Positions 71 to 36,729 of a DNA stretch of 55,292 nucleotides are shown one piece after another. Under the pieces are notes generated by a model that ran no database searches, had not been told where the DNA came from, and was given only the letters and a program-made list of their open reading frames with translations. Within the stretch, counting starts at the first letter, position 1; every line of letters begins with the position of its first letter. Location of the stretch: positions 1-55,292 of the IMG/VR virus record IMGVR_UViG_3300022849_000036; one strand, written 5' to 3'. This stretch comes from a virus. The translations under genes were made by a program, and so were the position numbers.

Positions 71-85
71 AGTTGGGAGGCGGCA

Positions 86-2485: not shown

Positions 2486-2523
2486 ACCGAGGACGAAGCA
2501 ATCAGTACCGAGGAGAAGACTGG

Positions 2524-2733: not shown

Positions 2734-2735
2734 GC

Positions 2736-2746: not shown

Positions 2747-2751
2747 TTCCG

Positions 2752-2827: not shown

Positions 2828-3110
2828 TTATGAAGTTTACAAGATCGAGCGGCTTGGGGTCCTCCAAGGGGAGATCGGGAAGTATCTCGTCAAGAGGCAC
2901 AGCGCTTTCGGGAGCTGTGCAGTACCGGTCAGAGAAGCCTTGGTCAGGCAGTTTGCAAGCGAGACGGAGTAGCCCCATCGATGAGGTCTCGCCGCCGCTC
3001 GACAAGTTCCCGGTGCTATGGTGCAGGGGGAGAGCCTCTGACGAAGCGACTGGACATGGCCCTTCAGTCCTCTTTCATGAAACACGCCGGGGGACCTTCT
3101 GGAGGCTTTG
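2828..3110 (+). other. Unresolved stretch, possible gene remnant
   Basis: Two frames look protein-like over part of this stretch. One runs from the tRNA end to a stop near 2972 but has no usable start codon. Another opens at ATG 2830 and stops at 3111, with low-complexity Ser/Arg content. The most likely reading is a small gene that lost its 5' end when the tRNA arrived, but no product can be supported. Confidence 0.25.
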
Positions 3111-3293
3111 ATGCCGGAGAAGATTGTGACCGAAGCGGATTTGGCCCATTTTATCGCCCAGCAAAACGAAAAATTCCAAAAAGAGATGCGCGGAATCCGT
3201 CGTAAGAACGGATGGCAATCTGCTGAAGACTTTTTGACCGAGCTGGAAGCATTGAAATTCGATTCCAGCAAAATGTATCCTTGGGAAAAGTAA
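3111..3293 (+). CDS. Small hypothetical protein (60 aa)
   Basis: Starts at ATG 3111 with GGAGG eight bases upstream. The product is charged and probably helical (LAHFIAQQNEKFQKEM). No domain recognised. It sits between tRNA-Met and tRNA-His, matching the pattern of tiny genes spaced among tRNAs. Confidence 0.6.
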   Translation: MPEKIVTEADLAHFIAQQNEKFQKEMRGIRRKNGWQSAEDFLTELEALKFDSSKMYPWEK

Positions 3294-3308
3294 GGTTCAA
3301 GAGTTTGA

Positions 3309-3383
3309 GTGCGGGTGGCCGAGTGGTTAGGCGCCAGCCTGTGGCACTGGTCTACGCGGGTTCAAACCCCGCCCTGCACCCCA
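3309..3383 (+). tRNA. tRNA-His (GTG)
   Basis: Acceptor GTGCGGG/CCTGCAC with discriminator C, a histidine identity element, and encoded CCA. The anticodon loop CTGTGGC gives GTG. The innermost anticodon-stem pair is C-A. The base before the acceptor is A, so the extra G-1 typical of bacterial tRNA-His is not encoded. Confidence 0.85.
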
Positions 3384-3398
3384 AATGTAGGAGACGCG

Positions 3399-3683
3399 AT
3401 GAGAGCCGTACCTGGTTGGATGTGCGCGATCGATTTTTCCTGCGAGCTGGGAGAAGCTCTAGGCGGAAACACAATTTACCCTTCTCTGGAAGACTTGCAG
3501 AAAAACCATGAATGCCTAGATCGCTGCGGGTATGAAGAAGTCGTCACGATGTCCAAAAAAGACTTCAACGAGCTGGTGACCAAAGCCGGCATCGATCCGA
3601 AGACGATCTACAGCAGCAATACTGGCCAGGTCTTCTGGACCAAAGAACTGGGACTCTTGCAAAAGACACAGGAGACGCGATGA
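3399..3683 (+). CDS. Hypothetical protein (94 aa)
   Basis: ATG 3399 follows TAGGAGA closely and begins 16 bases after the tRNA-His CCA. The sequence is mixed charged with no signal or membrane segment and no motif I recognise. It overlaps the next gene by four bases (ATGA), so the two are probably translated together. Confidence 0.6.
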   Translation: MRAVPGWMCAIDFSCELGEALGGNTIYPSLEDLQKNHECLDRCGYEEVVTMSKKDFNELVTKAGIDPKTIYSSNTGQVFWTKELGLLQKTQETR

Positions 3684-3892
3684 ATCGGGCAGAACGACGG
3701 TATCGGACGGAGAAGGTTGCACGGTGGCGCGCATCGCTTTATCCATCGCCGATGAACTTTGTCGGCCGGTTCCGCAAGTGGAACCTGACAGATCGATGCA
3801 GTGTGTGTTGCATGGAAAAGTATTACGATATTCAGACGCAGCGGGTGAAGGATGAACGCCGCAATCCGCTGACAGAAGAAGTGGGGCTGTAG
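3680..3892 (+). CDS. Small basic phage protein (70 aa)
   Basis: Begins MNRAERRYRTEKV, a basic opening common in small phage proteins, and has a CSVCC cluster in the middle. ATGA overlap with the upstream gene. The stop codon lies inside the acceptor stem of tRNA-Ala (10-base overlap). Function unknown. Confidence 0.6.
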   Translation: MNRAERRYRTEKVARWRASLYPSPMNFVGRFRKWNLTDRCSVCCMEKYYDIQTQRVKDERRNPLTEEVGL

Positions 3893-3959
3893 CTCAGTTG
3901 GGATGAGCGCCTGCTTTGCAAGCAGGAGGTCGGGAGTTCGATCCTCCCCAGCTCCACCA
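3883..3959 (+). tRNA. tRNA-Ala (TGC)
   Basis: Acceptor GGGGCTG pairs with CAGCTCC, discriminator A, CCA encoded. Anticodon loop TTTGCAA (TGC). Normal D- and T-arms (GGGAG-TTCGATC-CTCCC). Confidence 0.92.
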
Positions 3960-3976
3960 GACCATATTTCTTACGG

Positions 3977-3989
3977 TATAATTACGCGC
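3977..3989 (+). promoter_or_regulatory. TATAAT-N7-ATG promoter (leaderless start)
   Basis: TATAAT at 3977-3982 is followed by TACGCGC and then the ATG of the next gene. With normal spacing the transcript would start on or next to the A of ATG. Near-identical blocks occur at 5078 and 9961. Confidence 0.5.
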
Positions 3990-4505
3990 ATGGAATGGTT
4001 GATCGACTATGATGCTTGGTTCTTCCACCGTGTCGAAGGGCTGCTCAAGTGGCTCGACGAATGGCTTTCGATCAGCCAGAAATATGCCGAGCGAGGCATG
4101 ATCGCGCTCTATCTGGTTTTGACGTTGCCCCCTGCGAAATGGACGCTGAGCTTGGTCCTGGTCAAGATCATATGTGCGCTTTCCATTGGCACCTTGATGT
4201 GGATGTTGCACAAGCGTCCTGCCGTCGTCAGAAAATACACGCAAAGAAGTCGCTTCGAGGCTGTGAATCGGATTATTCTGCAGGGAGTTTTTGGCGTGAT
4301 GGCGGCGGCTGTTCTTTTTGCGTTACCGCATCAATGGACGGATGTTCCGACGGCCTTGGCGCAGGTGGTTTATGTCGTGTTTTTTTATGCCACAGACATT
4401 ACCTCCGATGGGGAGCGCGGCCGGCGACGGAAGGCAGCACTGGCCGAGTTGAAAAAGATGTTTGGTACAGAGTGGATACCGAAGCCACTGCTGGTGCCGC
4501 GATGA
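3990..4505 (+). CDS. Membrane protein, unknown function (171 aa)
   Basis: ATG 3990 fits the TATAAT-N7 spacing and leaves no room for a Shine-Dalgarno. The protein has hydrophobic segments around residues 45-75, 93-113 and 120-145 (for example IILQGVFGVMAAAVLFA), an aromatic N-terminus and a basic C-terminal tail. No family recognised. The stop overlaps the start of the YkgJ-like gene, so the two may be co-translated. Confidence 0.65.
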   Translation: MEWLIDYDAWFFHRVEGLLKWLDEWLSISQKYAERGMIALYLVLTLPPAKWTLSLVLVKIICALSIGTLMWMLHKRPAVVRKYTQRSRFEAVNRIILQGVFGVMAAAVLFALPHQWTDVPTALAQVVYVVFFYATDITSDGERGRRRKAALAELKKMFGTEWIPKPLLVPR

Positions 4506-4879
4506 TTACGGCCAATACATTGCCGTGTTCTTCCTGCACTGCCCTTTGCTGCGGCCCTGTGCCCCTTTCTCGCGACAGGTTGGAAAAGATCAAGGCCTAC
4601 GTCCAAACAATGCCCAAGGCCGAGCGGAAGCGCTTAGCGGCGCAGAAGCGGGGTCAAGTGGATTGCAGATTTCTGGACAAAGCGAACTATCGCTGCGCGA
4701 TTTATCCGGTGCGTCCCTGGCTCTGCGAAGCGTTTGGCCGAGTAGAGAGAATGCGATGCCCCAAGACCGTGGGACTCGTCGAAGCCATCCCGCCGTTTTT
4801 GGAAGACGCGGGCTTTACTGGGGAATATGGAAGCGAAACTGTAGGGAATTCTGGCCAATTCGATTGGTTGAAACTTTAA
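4502..4879 (+). CDS. YkgJ-family cysteine-cluster protein (125 aa)
   Basis: Shows the family layout: CSSCTALCC near the N-terminus, then CRFLDKANYRCAIYPVRPWLC, which is the CxxY..RPxxC signature. These cysteines are thought to bind zinc or an Fe-S cluster; the function of the family is not established. Start ATG 4502 overlaps the stop of the membrane-protein gene by four bases. Confidence 0.8.
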   Translation: MITANTLPCSSCTALCCGPVPLSRDRLEKIKAYVQTMPKAERKRLAAQKRGQVDCRFLDKANYRCAIYPVRPWLCEAFGRVERMRCPKTVGLVEAIPPFLEDAGFTGEYGSETVGNSGQFDWLKL

Positions 4880-5050
4880 AAAAGGGCGACAAAGAAAACC
4901 GGCTTTGCCGCCGTCCCTAGTGTGATGCTGCGTGGTGACAGTCAGTACAACTTACGCCGTTAAAACGACTTGGACGTTAAAACCCGTTAATGTGTCGCAT
5001 TATTGCACAAAAAATGAATGCAGGCAAAAAAGGCGACAAAGTAGATTCCC
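4880..5050 (+). repeat. Two copies of a GGCGACAAAG hairpin element
   Basis: An A-run followed by GGGCGACAAAG occurs near 4880 and A-run plus GGCGACAAAG near 5028. Each can fold back on a downstream CTTTG-containing strand. The stretch has no gene of its own. It may hold a terminator of the upstream gene and a duplicated regulatory hairpin; neither copy has a good U-tract. Confidence 0.35.
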
Positions 5051-5077
5051 TTTGCCAGCTTGTGGACAGAATCGGGG

Positions 5078-5090
5078 TATAATTGCGGGC
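5078..5090 (+). promoter_or_regulatory. TATAAT-N7-ATG promoter
   Basis: TATAAT at 5078-5083, then TGCGGGC, then ATG. Same spacing as at 3977 and 9961; no clear -35 at 17 bp. Confidence 0.5.
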
Positions 5091-5345
5091 ATGACGAACT
5101 TGCAGCTAGCCCTGAGCATCGGTATTCCTTCGTTGCTGGTCCTGGTGGGGATCTTCCTGAACAATGCGCGTTTCGGTGCGATCGACAATCGTTTCACCGC
5201 GACGGATGCCCGAATGGACAACCGTTTTACTGCAATTGATGGCCGTTTGGATCGAATGCAGGCCGATTTGTCGCAGTTCTATATGATTCTTGGGCGGCAC
5301 GAAGCGGACATCAACAACCTGAAAGAGCAACGACGCAGCGCTTAA
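5091..5345 (+). CDS. Membrane-anchored coiled-coil protein (84 aa)
   Basis: One N-terminal hydrophobic helix (LALSIGIPSLLVLVGIFL) is followed by repeated FTATDARMDNRFTAIDGR units and a MQADLSQFYMILGRHEADI region with heptad character. It is a type I recall from Acidobacteriota genomes with no known function. The start is set by the TATAAT-N7 block. Small membrane-plus-coil proteins can be holin or spanin parts, but nothing here proves that. Confidence 0.65.
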   Translation: MTNLQLALSIGIPSLLVLVGIFLNNARFGAIDNRFTATDARMDNRFTAIDGRLDRMQADLSQFYMILGRHEADINNLKEQRRSA

Positions 5346-5383
5346 CGCCGTAGAAATTGCGCCGTAGCTTATGTAGAATGGCA

Positions 5384-5533
5384 GTGCAGCGGCGGCGTGG
5401 AAAGCAGGCACGCCTAGTGTTGGAACTACGCCTATCAGACCGAAGGCTAGGTACTGGTAAGGCCATAGCCATAGGCTGAATGCCCGGGGCCGAGGGCAAG
5501 AGGAGCTGGAGTAGCGCCCGGCCCGCTGCACCA
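5384..5533 (+). ncRNA. Candidate structured RNA ending in CCA
   Basis: No gene is credible here, yet the sequence is rich in nested complementarity. GTGCAGCGG (5384-5392) pairs with CCGCTGCAC (5523-5531) and would close a ~150-base RNA. Inside are GGCGTG/CACGCC (5394-5414), GGCTA/TAGCC (5445-5470) and TGCCC/GGGCA around 5480-5497. It ends CCA, immediately before tRNA-Arg. It is not a recognisable tRNA, tmRNA, RNase P or 6S RNA. Found by eye only. Confidence 0.45.
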
Positions 5534-5538
5534 AGTTT

Positions 5539-5615
5539 GGCCCCGTAACTCAGTTGGATAGAGTAGCGGTTTCCTAAACCGTTAGTCGCTGGTTCGATTC
5601 CAGTCGGGGCTACCA
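5539..5615 (+). tRNA. tRNA-Arg (CCT)
   Basis: Acceptor GGCCCCG with CGGGGCT (one G-U), anticodon stem GCGGT/ACCGT around TTCCTAA (CCT), T-arm GCTGG-TTCGATT-CCAGT, discriminator A and encoded CCA. Reads the rare codon AGG. Confidence 0.9.
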
Positions 5616-5795
5616 AGATTGACGGGTGAGGATCACCTCTCCCTGAACGGCTGGCCTGGCAATCAGGGAACTGCTCGTTTCAAGCGCGACGCGTCTAGCC
5701 GAGCGCACGACGAGTTCAGGAATGTCGGTGGAACAGTGGGGTGATTGGCTGCCGGGAAAGACCGGCAATTTCTTCAACGTCTTGCAATAGATTTT

Positions 5796-5803
5796 GCTAG
5801 AAT
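5796..5803 (+). promoter_or_regulatory. Extended -10 (TGCTAGAAT)
   Basis: TGC immediately before TAGAAT, about 14 bases before the ATG of the sigma-like gene. Upstream (5616-5795) no gene is seen; a GCCGG-GAAAGA-CCGGC hairpin at about 5753-5768 may be a terminator. Confidence 0.4.
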
Positions 5804-5816
5804 AAATCGAAAACAT

Positions 5817-6362
5817 ATGAGCACCGACGAGGATATTTCAGCGGTTGTCGAAGGCATATTCCATGAATATGCTCATCCCCGGATGGTGTTCGATCATGAC
5901 ACTGGCCTTTCCCCAGACGACAACCTGTACCAGATCAACAACGATTCCACCCTGATTCGCGAAGCGGGATTGTCGGCCGAAAAGCACGAGGCCGAAGTGC
6001 TGGCATGGCTGTCTCAGCATGATCAAACAGAGAAAGTTCAGGAAGAAAAAGAAAGAACCGTGTTGAGGCGCAAATACGGCCCCTGGTGTGAAAAAGCGCA
6101 AAAGGATGAAGCGGCGCTTTGTGCTGCGGCCGTGAAACGGAGCGGTTCAAAGCTGTCTGCGGGGGCAAAGAAGAATCTCGAAACAGTGCTCTATCGCATC
6201 CCCCCACCGTACGGCATATATTTCGTTCTTAGACACATCAACGGCCTGAAGAATGCGCAGATCGCGGCATTGGAAGATGTGCCTATCAGCGTCGTACAGA
6301 AAAGGGTTAAAAAAGCGATTTTTTGGGTAGAAATGATCGTAGCCGAACTGACAGAAAGATGA
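5817..6362 (+). CDS. Sigma-70 region-4-like protein (181 aa)
   Basis: The last ~55 residues read IPPPYGIYFVLRHINGLKNA followed by a helix-turn-helix, like sigma region 4 (usually LPxxxRxVFxLRHxxGLSxxEIA). The first ~120 residues are acidic and do not show sigma region 2. It may be a phage sigma-like or anti-sigma adaptor that redirects host RNA polymerase; this is inference. ATG 5817 fits the promoter at 5796; an upstream start would cross it. Confidence 0.6.
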   Translation: MSTDEDISAVVEGIFHEYAHPRMVFDHDTGLSPDDNLYQINNDSTLIREAGLSAEKHEAEVLAWLSQHDQTEKVQEEKERTVLRRKYGPWCEKAQKDEAALCAAAVKRSGSKLSAGAKKNLETVLYRIPPPYGIYFVLRHINGLKNAQIAALEDVPISVVQKRVKKAIFWVEMIVAELTER

Positions 6363-6364
6363 GT

Positions 6365-6736
6365 TCAGGAACCCGATCTCTCTGTCTTGAAGTTTTCCCA
6401 TAGAAAATCCGGGCTAAGTTCTATTCCGGATTCTGCCCAGCGAGGATCGCTGAGCGCCAGTCGGCGAAGATACGCGCGCAGATCGTCGTCCAGAACGTTT
6501 TCTACTTTGATGCCGTCATAAGGCTGGATCTCCTGACAAAGCGCCAGGAACGCTTTGAAGTAGCCTTGTCGACGGAATCTGGGATCGACTGTAATGTTGG
6601 CAATATCGAGATAGTGATGCATCTTGCGATCTGTGCCAAGATGCAACCCCTTGCGCACATAGACTTTTATGTACTCACCCGTAAGCCAGGTGTTGCGTGT
6701 GTACGAAATGAAAAATCTGACCAGTATTTCTTCCAT
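6365..6736 (-). CDS. GNAT-type acetyltransferase (123 aa)
   Basis: Contains ITVDPRFRRQGYFKAFLALC, the acetyl-CoA-binding motif A of GNAT proteins (VxPxxRxxGxxxxL). Preceded by GGGAGGA on the minus strand, which sets the start at 6736. Convergent with the sigma-like gene, divergent from the gene at 6780. Substrate unknown. Shorter than most GNATs but the core fold could fit. Confidence 0.7.
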   Translation of the reverse strand: MEEILVRFFISYTRNTWLTGEYIKVYVRKGLHLGTDRKMHHYLDIANITVDPRFRRQGYFKAFLALCQEIQPYDGIKVENVLDDDLRAYLRRLALSDPRWAESGIELSPDFLWENFKTERSGS

Positions 6737-6779
6737 CGTTATTTCCTCCCGTTTAGAATACAACGTCAAGGAGGCCACA

Positions 6780-6953
6780 ATGAACGAAGAAAAGAAAGCC
6801 CAAAAAGCCGATTTGAAAAAGCGTATGTTGGAAGAGACGCTCCAGAAGAAGGAAGCCGAAGCTGAGCACAGACGCCAATTGCTGGCCAGCCTTAGCCCAA
6901 AAACCAGAGAGATGGCGCGGCGCGATTTTGCCAAGCTGGGACTCTACCAGTAA
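6780..6953 (+). CDS. Small charged helical protein (57 aa)
   Basis: ATG 6780 with AAGGAGG upstream. Almost all Lys, Glu, Arg and Leu; likely one long helix. A TAGAAT hexamer in the divergent gap at about 6754 may be its -10. No function known. Confidence 0.6.
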   Translation: MNEEKKAQKADLKKRMLEETLQKKEAEAEHRRQLLASLSPKTREMARRDFAKLGLYQ

Positions 6954-6965
6954 AAAGGAAATCGG

Positions 6966-7454
6966 ATGAATGTGCCTGAGGCGATCCCTGATGTGGTATC
7001 GAAGCGGAATCATTTTCGGCCTGCCGCCGAGCTGGCAGAAGATGCCCTGGAGTATCTGCCAGAGCAGTACAAGCATCCGGGATTCAAGAGTTGGCTGATC
7101 CGATATACGGAAACGGTGATTCGGGACGTGGCCTACTCCTTCAGCACGGCGGCAGAGCGGGGAATTCAACAGGCGGCCAGTCTACTTTGCGATCCGGAGT
7201 ATTACGCAACGCAGCGCAAGCGGCGCATGAACGAGCGCCAGAGGATGCAGGAAGAACATGCCAAGCAGGAATGGGACCGGCTGGAGCGGATGAACTGCCC
7301 GACCGCGGAGCAGGTTGGAGAGCAGATTCTGTTTTCTGAGCGCCAAGTTGAGTATCACCGGACCGAGCTGGCCAGGTATGAAGCGAGCCTGGAAAGGCTG
7401 CGTGCCATCGAGCCGAAAAACATTCGGCTGGTTCCTTCCAAAAAAATCCAGTAG
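6966..7454 (+). CDS. Hypothetical protein with coiled-coil C-terminus (162 aa)
   Basis: Follows the previous gene by 12 bases. Residues ~90-150 are strongly helical (MNERQRMQEEHAKQEWDRLE), while the N-terminal half is mixed. No domain recognised. It ends just before the AGTCCGG palindrome, which could terminate the two-gene unit. Confidence 0.65.
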   Translation: MNVPEAIPDVVSKRNHFRPAAELAEDALEYLPEQYKHPGFKSWLIRYTETVIRDVAYSFSTAAERGIQQAASLLCDPEYYATQRKRRMNERQRMQEEHAKQEWDRLERMNCPTAEQVGEQILFSERQVEYHRTELARYEASLERLRAIEPKNIRLVPSKKIQ

Positions 7455-7461
7455 CGCAAAA

Positions 7462-7486
7462 AGGCAGTCCGGAATCTGGACTGCCT
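7462..7486 (+). repeat. AGTCCGG palindrome, possible terminator
   Basis: AGGCAGTCC-GGAATCT-GGACTGCCT, a nine-pair hairpin between two convergent genes. The core recurs at 17905, 37234, 44061, 48520 and 49408. No long U-tract follows. Confidence 0.65.
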
Positions 7487-7508
7487 AAGAAATCTTTGGT
7501 CATTTGAA

Positions 7509-7835
7509 TCACTCAAAAATCGTAACAAGTTTTGCGAGGACTTCTTCCAAGATGGGCTTTGGCAAAGTGTCGATCTTGCGTGCATTACGAGCGCTAAGAT
7601 CAAGCACACGGGGCTGATCGCAGCGAACAATGCCCATTGTTTCAATCCCTGAAATCGGAACAGCAAATCCAAGGCGACGCGCGAAATCTCCGCCGCCTGT
7701 GATCGGACAGACTACGGGCAATTTGGTTGCTTGGTTGAATTCTGTTGCGGAAACGATGACGATTGGTCGACTTCCTTGCTGCTCACGGCCTAGCGTCGGA
7801 TCGAGCGAAACCAGATAAATGTCTCCACGCTTCAT
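7509..7835 (-). CDS. mazF: MazF-type mRNA interferase toxin
   Basis: 108 aa, the usual MazF/PemK size. Opens MKRGDIYLVSLDPTLGREQ and continues SRPIVIVSATEFN, both hallmark segments, with VVCPIT further on. Expected to cleave mRNA and to be neutralised by the product of the upstream gene. ATG 7835 overlaps the antitoxin stop by four bases. Confidence 0.9.
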   Translation of the reverse strand: MKRGDIYLVSLDPTLGREQQGSRPIVIVSATEFNQATKLPVVCPITGGGDFARRLGFAVPISGIETMGIVRCDQPRVLDLSARNARKIDTLPKPILEEVLAKLVTIFE

Positions 7836-8089
7836 AGCAGTTCGCCACCCACAGCGCGATTGTTGACCCATTCGCGATCTTCCTTTGTCTGCGGGCGCGA
7901 GTAGTCGGACATGGCCAGCAATTTCTTGAGCGTGTAATGTGACTGCGGCGTTGGTTTGACGACAAGGCGGCCATCCGCAATAGCCACGCCTACTGCAGTT
8001 CCTACCTGCATGTTTAATTGCTCAAGAAATGCGGGGGGAACAACCAGCATGATTGATCCGCCGACTTTGCGCAGATTTGTGGTGTACAT
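7832..8089 (-). CDS. mazE: MazE/AbrB-type antitoxin
   Basis: 85 aa with the SpoVT/AbrB swapped-hairpin sequence: LRKVGGSIMLVVPPAFLEQL followed by VGTAVGVAIADGRLVV. The C-terminal tail (SRPQTKEDREWVNN) would wrap the toxin. The pair probably represses its own promoter, lying in the 8090-8195 gap shared with the divergent gene at 8196. Confidence 0.88.
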   Translation of the reverse strand: MYTTNLRKVGGSIMLVVPPAFLEQLNMQVGTAVGVAIADGRLVVKPTPQSHYTLKKLLAMSDYSRPQTKEDREWVNNRAVGGELL

Positions 8090-8195
8090 AATGCGTCTCC
8101 AATAAAACAAATATATAACTTTTTGGGTGCAATGGCAATCCCTATTACGCTTGGGAATGTAGACTTCCGGCAGTTCCCGAGCGTATATTGCGTGC

Positions 8196-8738
8196 ATGGA
8201 TTGGCGCGAGATTTGCCGCAAAGTTCACGACGAAGGCATTCAAACACTCAGCAAAGGCGAATCCCTTCCTTTTATGGTGCGGGCCTACGACCACAATGGA
8301 TGTGCTGCGCAAAGAGATTTGATTCTTACGAATGGCATTGACGATGCTGGTCGTGCGGCTTTGAGAACCATGACTCGGGAGATATTTTCTGAAATTCATT
8401 TGCCGGCAGCTCTGGTACAGTCGGACGCAATGGCAGTCAATGGAAGCAAATTCGCCAAGTATTTTGGGCTTGCGGAAAAGATCCCCTTCAAAGAATACGA
8501 AAAGGAATACATTCGCATTCTTGCAGAAAGATTCGACGGAACTGTGGCAAATTTGCCACGGGAGCTATGGGTTGATGCATTGGTCACGAGCATCAAGGGT
8601 CCACAGATCATGCCTGCCAATTTCATGACCTTTTACGAGAAAAACGCAAAAGGAAAAATTGAATTTGCGCCGACCGAGGAACGACCTGCGGCTGCAGTCA
8701 ACTTTTTGCCGGACTGGTGGAAAAACACGATAAATTAG
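8196..8738 (+). CDS. Hypothetical protein (180 aa)
   Basis: ATG 8196 follows TATATT-GCGTGC, a near match to the leaderless-start block, and no Shine-Dalgarno is visible. The product is soluble and mixed, with no motif I recognise. It lies between mazEF and the DUF7873-like gene. Confidence 0.6.
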   Translation: MDWREICRKVHDEGIQTLSKGESLPFMVRAYDHNGCAAQRDLILTNGIDDAGRAALRTMTREIFSEIHLPAALVQSDAMAVNGSKFAKYFGLAEKIPFKEYEKEYIRILAERFDGTVANLPRELWVDALVTSIKGPQIMPANFMTFYEKNAKGKIEFAPTEERPAAAVNFLPDWWKNTIN

Positions 8739-8787
8739 TTGCGCGCATGGCCAGGGTGATGTATATTCCCATCGTCGGGAGGGGACC

Positions 8788-9555
8788 ATGTCAAAGCTGC
8801 ACGAACTGCTGGCCGTGCATGGAAGTTTAAGCGGTCAGGCATCGAAGGTGCGTCAGGATCTGATTGCCACCTTCGAGAAAAAACGCCATCTGTTCGAAGG
8901 GCGGATGAAGAGCTTCACGCCCAACGAAGAAGTTGAAAGAATCTCTGCAATCGAAGAGCAGCAGGACGTACAGTCCACGGTTGCTCAGCAGATTGAGTGG
9001 GTTTCAAAGCACCTGGCCAAGGCCGTCGACATCGCCTACCAAGTGGATGCGGCCAACACGCAGGCAAAGGCCGACGTGGTGACAGAGGATGGAGAGATCC
9101 TGGCCAAGGACGTACCGGCAACGACTCTTCTTCAGCTTGAAAAGCGCGTAGGCGAGTGGAAGGAACTGATTGTATCCATCCCCACCTTGGACCCGGCAAA
9201 GGGCTTCAAACCGGATGAATCGCGCGGCAAGGGATACTGGAAGGCTCGGGACGTAACCAAGTTTCGGACCCGGAAGGACAAGAAGCCGTTGGTGCTCTAT
9301 GACGCCACGGACAAGCATCCTGCGCAGACACAGGTGATGGATGTGGATACCGTGATTGGCACGATTCTTGAGCAGGAGTGGAGCGCATTGATCACGCCGT
9401 CGACAAAGGCAGATCTGCTCGATCGTGTGGAGACACTTTATCGCGCTGTGACCAAAGCTCGTTCGAAGGCAAACGAGCAGGACACAAGCGTGAGCGACAA
9501 AAAGATTGGCGCTGGCTTGTTGGATTACGTGTTCAAGCCGCTGTTCGACGCCTAA
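8788..9555 (+). CDS. Phage protein of unknown function, DUF7873-like (255 aa)
   Basis: Begins MSKLHELLAV, then a helical N-terminal region, a central LYDATDKHPAQTQVMDVDTVIG segment and a C-terminal FKPLFDA tail. This layout resembles a family of phage and bacterial proteins that I know as DUF7873, with no established role. GGGAGGGG lies a few bases before ATG 8788. Confidence 0.6.
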   Translation: MSKLHELLAVHGSLSGQASKVRQDLIATFEKKRHLFEGRMKSFTPNEEVERISAIEEQQDVQSTVAQQIEWVSKHLAKAVDIAYQVDAANTQAKADVVTEDGEILAKDVPATTLLQLEKRVGEWKELIVSIPTLDPAKGFKPDESRGKGYWKARDVTKFRTRKDKKPLVLYDATDKHPAQTQVMDVDTVIGTILEQEWSALITPSTKADLLDRVETLYRAVTKARSKANEQDTSVSDKKIGAGLLDYVFKPLFDA

Positions 9556-9557
9556 AC

Positions 9558-9698
9558 GGTTGGGTGGGGCAGAAATGCCCAATCCAGGCTCAGACTCAAA
9601 CTTATCTTCAGGTTCAACCCCGGTCACTGAAACCGGATCAGACTTTCACCCAAAGATTTATCGCAGCGAAACGATAGCGGAGTAGGCGAAACCACCCA
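9558..9698 (+). ncRNA. Possible folded leader upstream of the permuted tRNA
   Basis: TTGGGTGG (9560-9567) is complementary to CCACCCAA (9692-9699). Between them are GGGCA-GAAA-TGCCC, a GNRA-capped hairpin, and CCGGT-CACTGAA-ACCGG. This could be a structured leader that helps process the tRNA, or an intron-like RNA; group I core motifs were not found. Confidence 0.3.
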
Positions 9699-9780
9699 AA
9701 CGGAAGACGCGGGTTCGAACCCCGTAGGGGCCCCCAAAAAATATGGCCCTTTGGCTTAGCGGTAGAGCGTCCGGATTAGA
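9699..9780 (+). tRNA. Apparently permuted tRNA (Glu-like), 3' half before 5' half
   Basis: 9699-9736 is the 3' half of a tRNA: ...CGGA, T-arm GCGGG-TTCGAAC-CCCGT, acceptor strand AGGGGCC, then CCCA. After seven bases comes a 5' half from 9744: GGCCCTT, TG, D-arm GCTTAGCGGTAGAGC, then GTCCGG. The two acceptor strands pair over seven positions, and TCCG pairs with CGGA in the anticodon stem. No matching halves lie outside. It resembles tRNA-Glu by eye; the anticodon cannot be read. A broken pair of pseudogenes is the alternative. Confidence 0.5.
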
Positions 9781-9822
9781 CTGAGGGTTTTGGGCTATGA
9801 AGCAAGGCGCAGCTGCACAACT

Positions 9823-9895
9823 CATCGACTAGCTCAGTTGGTAGAGCTTCTGACTTGTAATCAGAATGTCGCTGGTTCAAATCCAGCGTCGATAC
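9823..9895 (+). tRNA. tRNA-Thr (TGT)
   Basis: Anticodon stem TCTGA/TCAGA encloses CTTGTAA, giving TGT. D-arm CTCAGTTGGTAGAG and T-arm GCTGG-TTCAAAT-CCAGC are normal. The acceptor CATCGAC/GTCGATA has a C-A mismatch at its first position. CCA is not encoded. Confidence 0.88.
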
Positions 9896-9900
9896 GATAA

Positions 9901-9936
9901 GGGCCGTCCGCGTGGTAGCGGGCGGCCCATTTAATT
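9901..9936 (+). terminator. Strong hairpin after tRNA-Thr
   Basis: GGGCCGTCCGC pairs with GCGGGCGGCCC around a six-base loop (11 pairs, one G-U), followed by ATTTAATTT. Probably ends the tRNA transcript and isolates it from the promoter at 9961. Confidence 0.65.
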
Positions 9937-9960
9937 TGCTCCACAACCGCTGTTTTTTTA

Positions 9961-9973
9961 TATAATTGCGCGC
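9961..9973 (+). promoter_or_regulatory. TATAAT-N7-ATG promoter upstream of the cas12 unit
   Basis: TATAAT at 9961-9966, TGCGCGC, then ATG 9974. It is the only promoter-like block ahead of the small genes and cas12, so it may drive the whole unit. Confidence 0.5.
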
Positions 9974-10009
9974 ATGACAAGCAGAGGAGAAAAGCCATGT
10001 CTGGCGTGA
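9974..10009 (+). CDS. Possible leaderless leader peptide (11 aa)
   Basis: The ATG at the expected transcript start opens an 11-codon frame, MTSRGEKPCLA, that overlaps the next gene's Shine-Dalgarno and start. Translation of it could modulate the next gene. Too short to be sure. Confidence 0.25.
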   Translation: MTSRGEKPCLA

Positions 10010-10277: not shown

Positions 10278-10297
10278 GTGCATTGGGTAAATGCAAC
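10261..10297 (+). CRISPR. Isolated CRISPR repeat on the cas12 5' end
   Basis: The last ~27 bases match the array repeat: AGTTTGAGTGCATT, loop GGGTA, AATGCAAC. The stem is TGCATT/AATGCA. It covers the stop of the upstream gene. The following ~30 bases, where a spacer would be, contain the Shine-Dalgarno and start of cas12. Such single repeats upstream of cas genes are known to give self-regulating crRNA-like guides in other systems; here that is inference. Confidence 0.7.
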
Positions 10298-10320
10298 AGT
10301 TCACCGAAAGGATCAAAAGC

Positions 10321-12603
10321 ATGATCAAAGAATTGACCTACAAAGACGATTGCGTCTTTGTGCACGCCGCAGAAACGTCACTAAAGACCACCAAGGCTTT
10401 TACGCATGGCCGCATCGTGTTTGACGAGAGCACGCGCCTGGCAACGTTTGCACAGTTGCCGGCAGTGGCGATTCCCGCAGATCTTCATCTCAAGACAGAT
10501 ACACCAATGAATTTTCAACTGGTGGCACCTGACGGCGAACTGCGTCCGCAGAAACGATCTGGAGTGCTGCTGGTAGACGAAAAGCAGCCGACCATCTTCC
10601 ACATTGGCGGAATGTCAAAAACGCCGCGTCAGTTTTCGGCAGAAGATGGATGGTCAAATGCCATCTATAAATACCGTGCGTACTTTACCCATGAAGGCAC
10701 GAACACGAGCGGCGAAGTACCTGAGTGGCTCAAAGCATCGATCACGCGACAAAGGGACCTCTGGAACCGCCTGGCTTGGCTTTGCCGCGAAGCACGGCGC
10801 CAATGCTCTTCTGGTTCCCCCGAGGAGATTACCGATTTTGTCCAAACCGTTATTTTGCCAGCGATCGATGCTTTTAACGACGCGCTCGGTCGCTCCAAAG
10901 ACAAGATGAAGCACCCAGCGAAGCTGAAGGTCGAGATGCCCGGCCTAGATGGTTTGTGGCATTTTGTTGGTGATCTGCGGAAGCGCGTCGACAAAGATCG
11001 TCCCGTGCCAGAAGGTTTGCTGGAAAAGGTGATTACCTTTGCCCAGCAGCACAAGACGGACTACACCGCGCTCGACGAGTTTGTAAAGAATTTTGGACCG
11101 ATTGCCAACAAGGAAGCAAAGGATCTCAAGCTACGGAGCTTTGAAATTCGGCCGACAATCACCGCCTTCAAGGCAACACTCGATCGCCGCAGGACCAAAA
11201 AGCTGACTTGGTCCGAGGGCTGGCCACTCATCAAGTACAACGACAGCCCCAAGGCCGGCGATTGGGGTCTGCATTACTATTTCAACAAGGCTGGCGTCAG
11301 TTCCTCATTGCTGGAGTCCAAGGAAGGCGTACCGGGATTGTCGTTTGGAGCGCCACTCGATCCTGCCAATACGGGGCATGAGTTAATCCAGACGGTAGGC
11401 GGTGGCAAAACGCTTCGAGAAGCGGAGATTTCCATTCGTGGAGACGATAACCAGCAATGGCGTTTTCGTTTTGCGGTCATTCAGTGGCGACCGTTGCCCT
11501 CAAACTCCCACGTAAAAGAGTGGAAACTTCTATTGCAGGATGGCAAACTTTGGCTCTGCTTGGTGGTTGAGCTGCAACGTGACCTACCGACTTCCACTGC
11601 CCTTGCAGCCGGTTTGGATATTGGCTGGCGGCGTACAGAAGTGGGAATTCGGTTTGGCACACTGTATGAGCCAACGAGCTGGACAGTGCGCGAGCTTGTG
11701 ATGGACTTTGAGAAATCGCCCAAAGATCACAAAGATCGTGTGCCATTCCGCATCGATATGGGACCCACACGCTGGGAAAAACGCAATATCACGCGGCTAT
11801 TCCCTGATTGGAAGCCGGGAGATGGAATCCCCAACGCGTTGGAGATCAGAACCGCGTTGCAGACTCGCCGTGACTACTTCAAAGATACGGCCAAGATTGC
11901 GCTGCGCAAGCAACTTGGGGAAAACACGCCTGCATGGCTGGAGAAAGCCGGTCGTAGTGGATTGCTGCGGCTCAAGGAGGAATTCAAAGACGATGTTGAT
12001 GTGCAGAGCATCCTGAATGCGTGGGGAAAAAACGAGGAACAAATTGGGACTCTTGCGGCCGCATACAGCAAAAAAGTCAGCGCGCGTATTGAATACAACC
12101 AGCTGCAAGTCGCCCATGATGTTTGCAGCTACCTGAAGAAAAAGAGCATTACACGGTTGATCCTGGAAAAGAACTTTCTGGCCAAAATTGCGGTCCACCA
12201 GGAGAACACCGATCCCGTAAGCTTGAAGCGCTCGCAGAAATACCGGCAATTTGCTGCTGTTGGCCGCTTCATCTCTCTGCTCAAGTACACTGCCGTGAAA
12301 TACGGAATTGTGACTGAGCCGTATGAGGCAATGAACACAACGCGCATGTGCTCATATTGCAATCATCTGAATCCATCGACGGAAAAGGATCGCTTCCAGT
12401 GTGAAGCATGTGGAAGGCTGATTGACCAGGATTACAACGCTGCGGTAAATCTGTCGCGCTTTGCCTGCGATCCCAAGCTGGCAAAGCTGGCGCTGGGAAA
12501 TGAAGACGAATCTGAAGAAGACGCACAGACGCCGGGATTTGAAGACGAAGAAGAAGACACGCAGTCGCTGGAAGGTGACGAAAGCGGCACAGACGATCTT
12601 TGA
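10321..12603 (+). CDS. cas12: Cas12-like (type V) RNA-guided nuclease, 760 aa
   Basis: The C-terminal half is a split RuvC nuclease: RuvC-I GLDIGW (D433), RuvC-II LILEKN (E616) and RuvC-III DQDYNAAVNL (D704). Before RuvC-III is a zinc ribbon, CSYC and CEAC (C677, C680, C694, C697). The N-terminal part has a helical recognition-like region (QRDLWNRLAWLC near 145) and a beta-rich stretch ending RPLPSNSHVKEWK, reminiscent of the wedge domain in V-C and V-M effectors. The tail is very acidic. Length falls in the phage CasPhi/Cas-lambda range but I cannot assign a subtype. ATG 10321 is chosen for its AAAGGA; the earlier ATG 10291 lies in a CRISPR repeat. All three acidic residues are present, so DNA cleavage is expected. 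Confidence 0.85.
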   Translation: MIKELTYKDDCVFVHAAETSLKTTKAFTHGRIVFDESTRLATFAQLPAVAIPADLHLKTDTPMNFQLVAPDGELRPQKRSGVLLVDEKQPTIFHIGGMSKTPRQFSAEDGWSNAIYKYRAYFTHEGTNTSGEVPEWLKASITRQRDLWNRLAWLCREARRQCSSGSPEEITDFVQTVILPAIDAFNDALGRSKDKMKHPAKLKVEMPGLDGLWHFVGDLRKRVDKDRPVPEGLLEKVITFAQQHKTDYTALDEFVKNFGPIANKEAKDLKLRSFEIRPTITAFKATLDRRRTKKLTWSEGWPLIKYNDSPKAGDWGLHYYFNKAGVSSSLLESKEGVPGLSFGAPLDPANTGHELIQTVGGGKTLREAEISIRGDDNQQWRFRFAVIQWRPLPSNSHVKEWKLLLQDGKLWLCLVVELQRDLPTSTALAAGLDIGWRRTEVGIRFGTLYEPTSWTVRELVMDFEKSPKDHKDRVPFRIDMGPTRWEKRNITRLFPDWKPGDGIPNALEIRTALQTRRDYFKDTAKIALRKQLGENTPAWLEKAGRSGLLRLKEEFKDDVDVQSILNAWGKNEEQIGTLAAAYSKKVSARIEYNQLQVAHDVCSYLKKKSITRLILEKNFLAKIAVHQENTDPVSLKRSQKYRQFAAVGRFISLLKYTAVKYGIVTEPYEAMNTTRMCSYCNHLNPSTEKDRFQCEACGRLIDQDYNAAVNLSRFACDPKLAKLALGNEDESEEDAQTPGFEDEEEDTQSLEGDESGTDDL

Positions 12604-20653: not shown

Positions 20654-22045
20654 ATGATGCAGATCGGCGCTTACTACAACGAGATCGATCCTTTCAAGTC
20701 TGAAGTCTTGCGGGAAGCCATCCAAGCAGGCGCAATTGCACCGGGGGATGTAGATGAACGGAGCATCGTCGATGTTGAACCAGCCGACCTTATGGGATAT
20801 GCCCAATGCCACTTCTTCGCAGGTGGCGGATTCTGGAGCGTTGCCCTGCGTCAAGCTGGATGGTCCGACGAGTGGCCCGTCTGGACAGGCTCCTGCCCCT
20901 GCCCCAGCTTCAGCGCGGCAGGCAAAGGTCAAGGGTTTGATGATCCTCGTCACCTCTGGCCTGCTTGGGCACGACTCATCCGCGAGTGCCACCCTTCAAC
21001 AATCTTTGGAGAGCAAGTTAGTGCCGCGATTGGACACGGCTGGCTCGACCTTGTTCAGACTGATCTGGAAGCACAAAACTACGCCGTTGGGAAGATCGTA
21101 CTTGGAGCGGCAAGCGTTGGCGCGCCACACATCCGGCAACGACTTTACTTCGTGGCGCAGTCCCAATGCCCGGCTGAACGGCGGCGGGGACTACTCGGAC
21201 CCGGAGAAGGCGGCGAAGCGCTTGGAGCAGGGGCATCAGCTCAATCTTTCGGAAGAAGTGCTGATTTCAGCTTGGCCAACACCGCAGACGCACGACGACA
21301 AGCTGCGGGGCAACACGGAAGCGGACAACCACTATTTCCCGCACGACCTGAGCAACGCGGCGACTCTCTCGTCATGGTCGACGCCGAAGGCAGAGGACTC
21401 GGAATGTGCGGGAGCGCATCGGGGCAAGCCGGATACACTGCACAGCCAAGCGAATCTGGCGACTTGGGCAACTCCTGCGAACAGCGATTATCGAACGGCC
21501 AACTTGAAGAGTTTTGCGGAACGCGGCGGGGGCAAAAAGGGCGAGCAACTGCGAAACCAAGTGAAACAGTTGGCGGGTTGGGCATCTCCGAAAGTGAACG
21601 ACGACAATCTGGACCGGCGCGGAATGAAGTCGACGGAGAAGGAATGGAATCGACCGAACGCAAGCAGATCGAGCCTGCCGCTGGAAGCAAAAATGCTGGC
21701 AGCATGGCCGAGCCCCTGCACGCCGAACGGTGGCCGTTCGATGTCGACGGACAAGATGGACGTGACGGGGAAGACGCTCGACGGCAGGAAGCACACGACG
21801 ACTTTGGAACATGCAGTGAAGTTCGCGGGGCCAGTCCGCTTAACGGCTTCTGGCGAGATGCTGACTGGATTGGATGCCGGGATGGAAAGTTCCGGCCAGT
21901 TGAATCCGGCTCATTCCCGCTGGCTCATGGGAGTGCCGCCCGTGTGGGACGACTTCGCCTCTACGGCGATGCAATCTGCATCCCTGCGGCACAAGCATTC
22001 ATTGAAGCGTACCTCGAAGCAAAAAGCGCAAAGAAACAAGGATAA
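20654..22045 (+). CDS. C5-cytosine DNA methyltransferase, phage type (463 aa)
   Basis: FAGGGF (55-60) binds AdoMet, SCPCPSFS carries the catalytic Cys83 after Pro, GEQV (119-122) replaces ENV, and IRQRLYFVA is motif VIII. The long middle (about 170-400) is low in complexity, and the C-terminus, DADWIGCRDGKFRPVE then VGRLRLYGDAI, returns to family sequence. Probably protects phage DNA from restriction. GAGGAGCG precedes the ATG pair. Another long gene lies in a different frame over the same DNA. Confidence 0.88.
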   Translation: MMQIGAYYNEIDPFKSEVLREAIQAGAIAPGDVDERSIVDVEPADLMGYAQCHFFAGGGFWSVALRQAGWSDEWPVWTGSCPCPSFSAAGKGQGFDDPRHLWPAWARLIRECHPSTIFGEQVSAAIGHGWLDLVQTDLEAQNYAVGKIVLGAASVGAPHIRQRLYFVAQSQCPAERRRGLLGPGEGGEALGAGASAQSFGRSADFSLANTADARRQAAGQHGSGQPLFPARPEQRGDSLVMVDAEGRGLGMCGSASGQAGYTAQPSESGDLGNSCEQRLSNGQLEEFCGTRRGQKGRATAKPSETVGGLGISESERRQSGPARNEVDGEGMESTERKQIEPAAGSKNAGSMAEPLHAERWPFDVDGQDGRDGEDARRQEAHDDFGTCSEVRGASPLNGFWRDADWIGCRDGKFRPVESGSFPLAHGSAARVGRLRLYGDAICIPAAQAFIEAYLEAKSAKKQG

Positions 22046-22049
22046 GTGA
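20754..22049 (+). CDS. Second gene in another frame over the methyltransferase (431 aa)
   Basis: Open for 431 codons entirely across the methyltransferase gene, stopping four bases after it. The product has repeated tryptophan motifs (AWPTPQ, SWSTPK, TWATPA, GWASPK, AWPSPC) and a C-terminal GQLNPAHSRWLMGVPPVWDD. I recall this repeat and ending from annotated phage proteins found with methyltransferases, so both frames are probably translated. Function unknown. The start at ATG 20754 has only a weak G-rich site. Confidence 0.65.
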   Translation: MNGASSMLNQPTLWDMPNATSSQVADSGALPCVKLDGPTSGPSGQAPAPAPASARQAKVKGLMILVTSGLLGHDSSASATLQQSLESKLVPRLDTAGSTLFRLIWKHKTTPLGRSYLERQALARHTSGNDFTSWRSPNARLNGGGDYSDPEKAAKRLEQGHQLNLSEEVLISAWPTPQTHDDKLRGNTEADNHYFPHDLSNAATLSSWSTPKAEDSECAGAHRGKPDTLHSQANLATWATPANSDYRTANLKSFAERGGGKKGEQLRNQVKQLAGWASPKVNDDNLDRRGMKSTEKEWNRPNASRSSLPLEAKMLAAWPSPCTPNGGRSMSTDKMDVTGKTLDGRKHTTTLEHAVKFAGPVRLTASGEMLTGLDAGMESSGQLNPAHSRWLMGVPPVWDDFASTAMQSASLRHKHSLKRTSKQKAQRNKDK

Positions 22050-22933
22050 TGGGTCGTATACGCAGTATCAAACCGGAGTTCAACGCGAACGAAGGACTCT
22101 CGTCTTTGTCGGCGCAAGCGCATCTTCTTGCTGAAGCGCTGCTCTGCTACGCCGATGACGAGGGCTACTTCAACGCAAATCCGGTGCTTGTGCGTGCCGG
22201 AACGTGCCCATTACGCAAAGATTTTAAAAATATTTCGAAATATTTGAAAGAACTTGCATCGATCGGTTATTTACGCTTCGGCAGCTACAACGGTAAGCGC
22301 TACGGACAAGTCATCCATTTCAAAAACCATCAGAAGATTAGTCACCCTACAAAAAGTAAGTTCAATGTTTCACTCATCTTATGGGAAGGAACTCCGGAAG
22401 TTTCCGGAGAGTCTCCAGAGTTACTCGTGAAAGATCCAGAGAGCCTCGGGGAAGTTACGGAGCCGCTCCGCCCTGATCAGGGAACAGGGAACAGGGAACA
22501 GGGAACAGGGAACAGGGGGGCAGATTCCGGAGAAACTCTGGAATCCGCCGATGCCCCCGGCGATTCTCTTTCCCCGAGAGACCGATGGAAAAAACGAACT
22601 ATGCAGCAACGGGTGAACGAGCCGTTGAGCGACGAAGCGCAGATGATCGCAACGGCTGTGATTGAAGCCATCGGCATGACAACCGAATGGGCTCGAAACC
22701 AGATTGCCAGACAGGCCGAGCAGGAACTCAAGACCTATCCCGGCGACTTGGACGGCATTCGCGACGGGATGGTGGCGGCCTGGAAGGAATACTGCCGCTT
22801 GGATACGGCCGGCAAACTCAGCAAGGTGGCGTGTGGCCCTGAAAAGTTTTATGGCGAAGGCCGGTGGCGAACTTCGAAGCGTTGGGGATTGAAGCCGGGT
22901 GTGCGCGCCTACGAAGTGCTAAGCGTGGCGTAA
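22049..22933 (+). CDS. Replication-initiator-like phage protein (294 aa)
   Basis: MGRIRSIKPEFNANEGLSSL followed by LAEALLCYADDEGYF is the N-terminal winged-helix type often found next to phage primases or helicases. The middle (143-160) is encoded by five copies of GGAACAG, which is not a multiple of three. C-terminal residues ~190-290 are a separate helical and basic part. AAGGA precedes the ATG. It leads the primase-helicase gene. Confidence 0.6.
   Translation: MGRIRSIKPEFNANEGLSSLSAQAHLLAEALLCYADDEGYFNANPVLVRAGTCPLRKDFKNISKYLKELASIGYLRFGSYNGKRYGQVIHFKNHQKISHPTKSKFNVSLILWEGTPEVSGESPELLVKDPESLGEVTEPLRPDQGTGNREQGTGNRGADSGETLESADAPGDSLSPRDRWKKRTMQQRVNEPLSDEAQMIATAVIEAIGMTTEWARNQIARQAEQELKTYPGDLDGIRDGMVAAWKEYCRLDTAGKLSKVACGPEKFYGEGRWRTSKRWGLKPGVRAYEVLSVA
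22481..22515 (+). repeat. GGAACAG x5 tandem repeat inside a gene
   Basis: Five perfect tandem 7-base units followed by a G-run. Gain or loss of a unit would shift the reading frame of the gene at 22049. On the protein it gives an alternating GTGNREQ pattern. Confidence 0.9.
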
Positions 22934-25141: not shown

Positions 25142-26482
25142 GTGTATCGAATCTTGGAAGGTGACGTGACGGAAGTGCTCCGCACTTTGGCGACAGAGAG
25201 TGTGCAGTGTGTCGTCACGTCGCCACCTTACTGGGGACTGCGGGATTACGGCACTGCGACATGGGATGGCGGCGATCCTGACTGCAAGCATGTTGCTCAT
25301 ACCATTCGTACTGGCTTGGGGCTGGCGGCGTTGGGTGAGCGGTTCCGTGGCGGCGGCCATAAGCAAGGCGAAGTAACCGAGATTCAGTATCGCGATGTAT
25401 GCGCGCAGTGTGGTGCGGTGCGTGTGGATCAACAGATTGGTTTGGAAAAGACACCTGAAGAATATGTCGACAAGATGGTGGCGGTGTTTGGCGAAGTACG
25501 ACGTGTGTTGCGCAAGGACGGAACGTGCTGGATGAATATGGGTGATTGCTACGCTTCGGGGGCAATCGGCGGTTCAAAAATTGGGATTAAAAATACTTTG
25601 CAAACGTGCTCACCTTCGGGTTACCACACTCTTCCCAAAACAGAGAATTTGGTTGCAGTACCACGTTCTGTTCCATGCGGAATGAAGCCCAAAGATCTTG
25701 TAGGCATGCCGTGGATGCTGGCATTTGCATTGCGTGCCGATGGTTGGTATTTGCGTCAGGACATTATCTGGGAAAAGCCAAATCCAATGCCGGAAAGTGT
25801 GCATGATCGTTGCACAAAGTCGCATGAGTATCTTTTTTTGCTGACGAAGTCGCCGCGATACTTCTTTGATCAGGCCGCAATCAGCGAGCCTGTTACTGGC
25901 AATGCGCATTCGCGTGGTACTGGCGTGAATCCAAAAGCAAAATGGAAGACACCAGATGGATGGGATACCAGCACAGGAAATGGTGGCCACGGATCTTTTC
26001 ACAAGGAAGGCCGTGAAGATGGGTTCGTTGGATACCAGCCGAAACTGCGGCCATTGGGTGAAAAAGGATCGCAAGCAGACCCCGACGAAGTTCGCAGTGC
26101 GCGCGGTGCAGCATTTGGTCGCGGCGCTGGCTGGCGCGAAGCAGGCCACATCAAGCAGAACGAGAGTTTTAGCGCTGCCGTGAAAGATCTTGTGGAAACA
26201 CGCAACAAGCGCAGCGTGTGGACGATTGCCACACAGGCGTTTCCCGAAGCACACTTTGCGACTTATCCGGAAAAGCTGGTGGAACCTTGCGTTCTGGCCG
26301 GAAGCAAAGAAGGCGATACCGTGCTGGACCCGTTTGCAGGCTCGGGAACTACGGGCGTGGTGGCACTGCGCTATGGCCGCAATTTTATCGGTATTGAGCT
26401 GAACGCGGAATATGCAGAGATGGCACGACGGCGCATTGAAGGTGACGCACCGTTGTTCAACAAACAGGAGAAAGCGGGATGA
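25142..26482 (+). CDS. DNA methyltransferase, beta class (446 aa)
   Basis: TSPPYWGLRDYG (motif IV) comes first and LDPFAGSGTTGVVALRYGRN (motif I) is near the C-terminus, the order of the beta class that methylates N4-cytosine or N6-adenine. A middle insertion carries YLFLLTKSPRYFFD, typical of the group. Start is GTG 25142; no in-frame ATG fits the first motif. Probably alters phage DNA to evade restriction. ATGA overlap with the next gene. Confidence 0.9.
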   Translation: MYRILEGDVTEVLRTLATESVQCVVTSPPYWGLRDYGTATWDGGDPDCKHVAHTIRTGLGLAALGERFRGGGHKQGEVTEIQYRDVCAQCGAVRVDQQIGLEKTPEEYVDKMVAVFGEVRRVLRKDGTCWMNMGDCYASGAIGGSKIGIKNTLQTCSPSGYHTLPKTENLVAVPRSVPCGMKPKDLVGMPWMLAFALRADGWYLRQDIIWEKPNPMPESVHDRCTKSHEYLFLLTKSPRYFFDQAAISEPVTGNAHSRGTGVNPKAKWKTPDGWDTSTGNGGHGSFHKEGREDGFVGYQPKLRPLGEKGSQADPDEVRSARGAAFGRGAGWREAGHIKQNESFSAAVKDLVETRNKRSVWTIATQAFPEAHFATYPEKLVEPCVLAGSKEGDTVLDPFAGSGTTGVVALRYGRNFIGIELNAEYAEMARRRIEGDAPLFNKQEKAG

Positions 26483-35967: not shown

Positions 35968-35994
35968 GGGAGTGTACCCCTCGGGTGCACTCCC
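35968..35994 (+). terminator. Hairpin directly before array 2
   Basis: GGGAGTGTACCC pairs with GGGTGCACTCCC (12 pairs, one G-U), three-base loop, no U-tract. Its right arm overlaps the degenerate 5' end of the first repeat. It may terminate the upstream gene or act as array leader. Confidence 0.55.
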
Positions 35995-36729
35995 AGTAGT
36001 TGAAGTGCATCGAGCAGATGCAACCATGGCAAAGCGATTCATGCGGTCGAAATACTGGTCGCAATGTAGTTTGAGTGCATCGCGTAGATGCAACTTCAAC
36101 GACTCGCCAGTGATGAACCTGTCTCGCTGGTCGCAAGGTAGTTTCAGTGCATCGAGTAGATGCAACGTACTTAGCATGAGTTGCTTGACCTTCGGTCAAT
36201 GTCGCAAGGTAGTTGAAGTGCATCGAACAGATGCAACGTTTTAAAGCTGCATTCACAAATTCCAGCATTTGGTCGCAAGGCAGTTTGAGTGCATCGCGTA
36301 GATGCAACCATTAAGATACCCAGCGAATAGCACATCCGCTTCGTAGCAAAGCAGTTGAAGTGCATCGAGTAGATGCAACTGTTCGAACTGTCACGCATGC
36401 GTGTACTGCCAGGTAACAAAGCAGTCAAAGTGCATCGCATAGATGCAACGCCCCAGATGCGATAACGGTAATCTGCAAACGTGTAGCAAGATAGTCTTAG
36501 TGCATCGGATAGATGCAACAACGGCAACCGCTTCAAAGCAACGTGGGCGTGGGGTAGCAAGGTAGTTTAAGTGCATCGAACAGATGCAACAACTAGATCA
36601 GGGTGGGCAACACCGTAGTCTCCGGTCGCAAGGTAGTTTGAGTGCATCGCGTAGATGCAACCAACAATGGGAAACTGGCTAGGATGGACATCGTAGCAAT
36701 GCAGTTGCAGTGCATCGGATAGATGCAAC
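35988..36729 (+). CRISPR. CRISPR array 2, 11 repeats
   Basis: Repeats end at 36024, 36094, 36166, 36237, 36308, 36379, 36449, 36519, 36590, 36661 and 36729. All use stem TGCATC/GATGCA with loops such as GAGCA, GCGTA, GAACA and GGATA. The 5' part is GTCGCAAGGTAG or GTAGCAAAGCAG, differing from the main array. Spacers are 31-35 bases. No cas gene lies nearby; it must rely on the effector at 10321, 25 kb away. No promoter seen. Confidence 0.95.

Follow-up and report, generated by a model that had tools for sequence, protein, structure and literature searches.

The recognition sequence of the methyltransferase M.EcoHK31I is YGGCCR, and the coding region of its small subunit reportedly lies inside that of the large one in a different frame, as Lee, Kam and Shaw are said to have described in 1995. 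This C5 cytosine methyltransferase consists of two polypeptides, with motifs I-VIII and X located in the large subunit and motif IX in the smaller one, and its TRD has been predicted in the large subunit (PMC3404938). In M.AquI, another C5 methyltransferase naturally split into two chains, the second chain holds motif IX along with some of the variable region (PMC3404938).

The locus considered here is found in the window, that is, the whole analyzed stretch of viral DNA (55,292 nucleotides, IMG/VR record IMGVR_UViG_3300022849_000036), and very probably specifies a C5 cytosine DNA methyltransferase split between two nested frames of the same strand. By the described motif layout it resembles M.EcoHK31I, with motifs I-VIII and X in the product of the first frame (alpha, or MTase) and motif IX in the product of the +1 frame (beta, or P2). 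A difference is that the module array belongs to P2, the small-frame product, while the predicted TRD of M.EcoHK31I is assigned to the large subunit. Moreover, M.EcoHK31I is known from a restriction-modification system, whereas the nested pair comes from phages and prophages. M.AquI is similar in having two chains with motif IX in the second one, but there motif X is in the second chain as well, and in this respect M.AquI is closer to gp77/gp76 of mycobacteriophage Peaches. Wachhund gp69 and its relatives have motifs I-VIII, (L/W)PTP modules, IX and X in the same order as here, but gp69 is one chain encoded in one frame, whereas in the nested pair the modules and motif IX are in the +1 frame, and motif X is again encoded in the first frame. 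No descriptions of the MTase/P2 overlap in phages were found in the open-access literature searched. Long dual coding on the same strand is usually regarded as rare, and gene callers suppress such overlaps.

Structure of the locus and the start of P2

All features of the locus are on the plus strand. The alpha frame (20654..22045, 463 aa, starting with ATG at 20654 or 20657) matches PF00145 over residues 78-170 (E=8.6e-15) and phrog_363 (E=1.8e-71). Motifs I-VIII of alpha lie in region R1 (20810..21160), overlapping in the +1 frame with the N-terminal part of P2, and are represented by FFAGGGF, SCPCPSFS, FGEQV and GAPHIRQR. The catalytic motifs are present, with the PC of motif IV in SCPCPSFS and motif VIII in GAPHIRQR, both nearly invariant in the homologue alignment A2. 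In region R2 (21158..21844) the low-complexity linker of alpha overlaps with the module array of P2.

As stated in the initial annotation, the MTase and a 431-codon frame are both open throughout and have stop codons 4 nt apart. The longest form of this second ORF, in the +1 frame, indeed starts with the first ATG at 20754 and ends at 22049 (431 aa), but the start of P2 is more likely the ATG at 20772, giving a putative protein of 425 aa (20772..22049). The latter codon is preceded, at a distance of 8 nt, by the Shine-Dalgarno-like GGAG (20760..20763). The stop codon of P2 and the ATG with which the following gene (22049-22933) begins overlap in TGATG at 22047..22051.

Of 183 loci, 182 have an in-frame ATG ahead of motif I and no stop codon in between, against an expectation of 100.5. 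At the ATG homologous to 20772, 88 of 130 loci have a Shine-Dalgarno-like site, compared with 16.8 expected, while at the ATG position 20754 there is little excess (24 of 85 vs 17.0 expected). The enrichment is seen at one ATG position, 20772, with little or no excess at the others. Comparison of these sites favours independent initiation of P2 at 20772, likely with GGAG at 20760-20763.

P2 matches phrog_31772 and phrog_1008, as do all 140 P2 proteins scanned. Both families are labelled "DNA methyltransferase", exactly as phrog_363 matched by alpha, and the identical label hides different reading frames of the same DNA; databases give both frames one name. P2 has no match in Pfam or NCBIfam, its profile has none among PDB sequences, and the Rfam scan around the MTase and P2 genes also yielded no match. 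The AlphaFold2 model of P2 has a mean pLDDT of 55.6, and the only confidently modelled N-terminal part is residues 76-123 (20979..21122; block pLDDT up to 93), predicted to form a helix and a beta-hairpin. A fold search with this model retrieved nothing at E<=0.001; the best match, cyanase, is meaningless at such model confidence.

Conservation of the two reading frames

Loci were gathered from viral contigs, bacterial genomes and phage records. In total, 219 loci were distinct by sequence. A single ORF contained both MTase ends in 210 of them, and the stop-codon tests were run on the 187 that satisfied every motif filter. These 187 homologues are a sample, the true total being at least 187, as the viral loci among them come from the matches listed, and the MTase search patterns favour the close subfamily. 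P2 played no part in the choice of the genome loci and of half of the viral loci, as the query used to retrieve them was the MTase. The median length of the dual-coding stretch in this set is 981 nt, the maximum being 1485 nt. Dual coding of about 1 kb occurs in nearly every homologue examined, in phages and in genomes of many bacterial groups.

In the stop-codon test, the MTase codons of each locus were redrawn synonymously, with codon frequencies taken from nearby ORFs and the MTase protein left unchanged. Among the 187 homologues, 4 stop codons were observed in the P2 frame vs 857.5 expected, and, rather than being closed in most homologues, which the initial annotation had named as refuting dual coding, the second frame was open in 183 of them vs 3.2 expected. 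The remaining (+2) frame, used as a control, had 2385 stops vs 2246 expected. At the bacterial-genome loci, retrieved with the MTase query, the P2 frame had no stops (297.4 expected) and was open in 66 of 66 cases vs 1.1 expected. Within R1, 2 stops were seen vs 376 expected. The P2 frame of seven loci with GC<0.46 had none vs 47.7 expected; opening by chance due to the GC content is ruled out by this test. In the window alone about 4.1 stops were expected in P2 and none observed, with the probability of an open frame about 0-0.5%, so that the opening is already unusual there, but it is the homologue set that is decisive.

In the reverse test, codons of the R2 linker were redrawn with the P2 protein kept. 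The MTase frame had no stops in R2 vs 986 expected, and was open in 179 of 179 loci vs 2.2 expected. The third frame, being the control, had 997 stops vs 686 expected, hence the redraw null is imperfect and the expectations may err by tens of percent, which is far smaller than the effects observed.

Substitutions differ between regions of the overlap. As the compared pairs share ancestry, the pairwise counts are effect sizes rather than exact tests: position 1 of MTase codons, which is the wobble position of P2, accounts for 55% of differences in R2 among related pairs and 68% among close pairs, and the MTase wobble position for 15-20%. The pairwise pN/pS in R2, calculated for both frames, is 0.13-0.18 in P2 vs 1.7-2.0 in the MTase frame, the latter values being forced by the constraint on P2. 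The observation in the initial annotation that the MTase pays for the overlap with a low-complexity middle holds, as 74% of the R2 composition in this frame is G/S/R/Q/E/P/A/K/D, and substitutions fall on the P2 wobble; the middle of alpha appears not to be conserved as a protein. The four-fold synonymous change of the MTase is 0.515 upstream of P2 and 0.279 in R1 (bootstrap ratio 0.50-0.59), decreases to 0.122 in R3, and is back up to 0.321 past motif IX. The lowered change in R1 indicates that alpha and P2 are both constrained there, and the regional pattern suggests that alpha dominates R1 and the stretch after motif IX, while P2 dominates R2 and R3.

Purifying selection is observed on both frames, as estimated from codon changes. 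Comparison shows the MTase/P2 overlap to be real and not due to chance, both frames being coding and under selection; across hundreds of phages and prophages selection keeps this two-frame arrangement, usually annotated as one gene. At the same time, the first approximately 60 residues of P2 are broken in some relatives, namely N15 and the intein-bearing EBPR siphovirus 2 (L018), which shows that not all of P2 is needed. In the latter, motif IV of the MTase contains an apparent intein, and the +1 frame has stops throughout the intein-like insert, being open again for more than 300 codons beyond it; this phage therefore either does without the first part of P2 or has a replacement for it.

Methyltransferase motifs in P2 and layouts in other phages

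The initial annotation listed six spaced W-(P/S/A)-(T/S)-P motifs in the second product. Six are indeed found, namely WRSP, WPTP, WSTP, WATP, WASP and WPSP at residues 134, 174, 208, 238, 276 and 318, although the first one, having Arg in the second position, deviates from that pattern and W-x-(T/S)-P is more accurate. The corresponding modules span 21153..21716, starting at 21153, 21273, 21375, 21465, 21579 and 21705. In single-chain actinophage MTases, matching modules are located in frame between motifs VIII and IX, and hhalign places the P2 modules on them with probability 89-93% (E 2e-6 to 4e-7). By their position, the modules of P2 are presumed to be the target recognition region.

The GQLNPAHSRWLMG ending of P2, pointed out in the initial annotation, is present and nearly invariant in relatives; the most conserved end of the protein has the consensus LNPxxSRWLMGxPxxW. 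We identify it as motif IX of C5 methyltransferases (GQLNPAHSRWLMGVPPVW, 21894..21947, P2 frame), partly by reference to the motif of M.HhaI. Aligned by hhalign to the C-terminus of single-chain MTases, this end falls on their motif IX with probability 93.7% (E 1.8e-7) vs 0.4% in the column-shuffled control. In the MTase frame, even a loose motif IX pattern is absent from all 187 homologues. The C-terminus of alpha (VGRLRLYGDAICIPAAQAFIEAYL, 21944..22015) is aligned with residues immediately following the single-chain motif IX (E 1.5e-4, probability 52%), and alpha carries motif X, though the match is weaker than for motif IX. The comparison thus places motifs I-VIII and X in alpha and motif IX in P2; MTase and P2 are probably two halves of one enzyme, which had escaped the initial annotation.

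A single chain of Mycobacterium phage Wachhund and its relatives combines motifs I-VIII with LPTP modules, FPEWMMGWPAGW and motif X. The model of a single-chain relative resembles M.HhaI in fold along the entire chain (TM ~0.5), the modules having low confidence. The single-chain layout is found in Wachhund gp69 and actinophage loci L270/L271. In Peaches, the genes gp77 and gp76 are adjacent, the P2-homologous part together with motif X forming the neighbouring gene annotated as DNA methyltransferase. In Vorrps, gp6 and gp5 overlap partially, and gp5, carrying the modules, IX and X, has its own ATG inside gp6. The actinophage layouts (single chain, adjacent genes, partial overlap) may represent intermediates, and one chain, adjacent genes, partial overlap and nested genes would be a natural series for testing the origin of overlapping genes. 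Wachhund also has a P2-like stretch in the +1 frame, and may equally derive from a nested ancestor.

The nested layout is observed in the window, epsilon15, N15 (with the first part of P2 broken), K1ind3, PhiXhv-5, Paenibacillus phage Diva, Lacticaseibacillus phage R23.9, Mycobacterium phage Hades and others, thus recurring in low-GC phages of Paenibacillus and Lacticaseibacillus. The +1 frame of eight distant phages is open over a stretch of 197-265 codons, with the probability of being open 0-0.4% by codon redraw, a somewhat generous estimate since the stretch was chosen as the longest one. P2 homologues have been annotated over the MTase in K1ind3 (ORF29, "Mte8-like"), PhiXhv-5 (a second "DNA methyltransferase") and Diva (DIVA_50, "g49 internal gene"); none of the three records names a function, tests selection or makes a connection with motif IX.

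Several loci deviate from these layouts. In Pseudomonas phage PMG1 (L013, 1201-2107) the MTase frame is broken by a frame change near its start, possibly a sequencing error, and P2 is intact and annotated as the gene. The annotated MTase covers part of the nested pair in Erythrobacter phage R6L (L265) and Pseudomonas phage PACT201 (L269); the two frames of the latter look scrambled, with frame changes occurring repeatedly, perhaps owing to sequencing errors. In locus L007 (766-2896) an ORF resembling an HNH endonuclease is inserted into the MTase beyond motif VIII, interrupting it, and the downstream P2 has a changed N-terminus, not located over the MTase motifs. A clear non-overlapping P2 of the nested type was not found as a stand-alone gene; phrog_27243, considered as a stand-alone relative, gave nothing in the one record examined.

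Alternative explanations and other features of the window

The openness of both frames over nearly the full length means that a programmed +1 frameshift of alpha anywhere in R1-R2 would yield a fusion of motifs I-VIII with the modules and motif IX, that is, the order seen in one frame in single-chain relatives. We consider this origin of P2 very unlikely, given the internal ATG conserved in 182 of 183 loci, the Shine-Dalgarno-like enrichment at a single position, the constraint on P2 in R1, upstream of where the shift would help, and gp5 of Vorrps with its own start codon. P2 might also be a separate overprinted protein unrelated to methylation, e.g. a regulator or a host-takeover protein. Its N-terminal part of approximately 130 residues, lying over the catalytic motifs of alpha, had no counterpart outside the nested arrangement among the searches, and the lack of Pfam and NCBIfam matches agrees with such a role; still, it seems quite improbable, as motif IX and the modules match methyltransferase parts missing from alpha, and in Peaches the homologous part is joined with motif X in the neighbouring "DNA methyltransferase" gene. 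Finally, P2 could be an untranslated frame left open as a by-product of GC-rich codon usage and of the conservation of the MTase, since conserved motifs of alpha force some residues of P2, and chance stops are fewer in GC-rich sequences. This is scarcely credible: such a by-product is ruled out by the redraw tests keeping the MTase protein, including the loci with GC<0.46, and by the P2-dominated substitutions at P2 wobble positions in R2, where alpha is unconstrained.

In the favoured explanation, a methyltransferase split between two chains, alpha would supply motifs I-VIII and X, its middle being a flexible linker. Beta, starting at its own ribosome-binding site inside alpha, would supply the helix-hairpin, the array of W-x-(T/S)-P modules (the presumed target recognition part) and motif IX. 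Alpha and beta probably assemble into one enzyme, for which both chains would be needed, and this enzyme would methylate phage DNA, perhaps evading host restriction. If so, many single-frame clones of phage "cytosine methyltransferases" lack motif IX and the recognition region, and could look inactive.

A single chain may have turned into the nested layout through a pair of frame changes compensating each other, located upstream of the modules and between motifs IX and X. The R2 linker of alpha and the N-terminal part of P2 would then both be new sequence that overprints an older frame, and the codon pattern fits this route. A more tentative proposal, which we hold with less than even confidence, is that this two-frame gene is very widespread and its beta frame carries an interchangeable array of recognition modules, through whose gain, loss or swap phages change the methylation specificity, the alpha sequence beneath being only a tether. 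The overprinting would then be two-directional, with the modules and motif IX ancestral in beta and the alpha linker overprinted on them, and the N-terminus of beta overprinted on the catalytic motifs.

Other features were noted in the window. A second DNA methyltransferase, of the N6/N4 type (25142-26482, plus strand; PF01555, E=1.2e-49), is encoded 3 kb downstream of MTase/P2. The left end (1-10000) contains six tRNA genes and, judged by eye, a thiamine-pyrophosphate-enzyme-like ORF (399-2258), and may be either bacterial DNA flanking a prophage or cargo of the phage. A 770-aa protein (10291-12603, plus strand) has a Cas12f-like TNB domain (PF07282, E=3.1e-13) and distant PDB matches over the C-terminal part (Cas12m, E=1e-7), and is predicted to be a compact Cas12/TnpB-like protein. 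Nine direct repeats of approximately 40 nt, spaced by 70-72 nt and resembling a CRISPR array, are located at 35985-36590, about 23 kb from the Cas12-like gene; their 3' end is well conserved (GTGCATC...GATGCAAC), and the 5' end is divergent.
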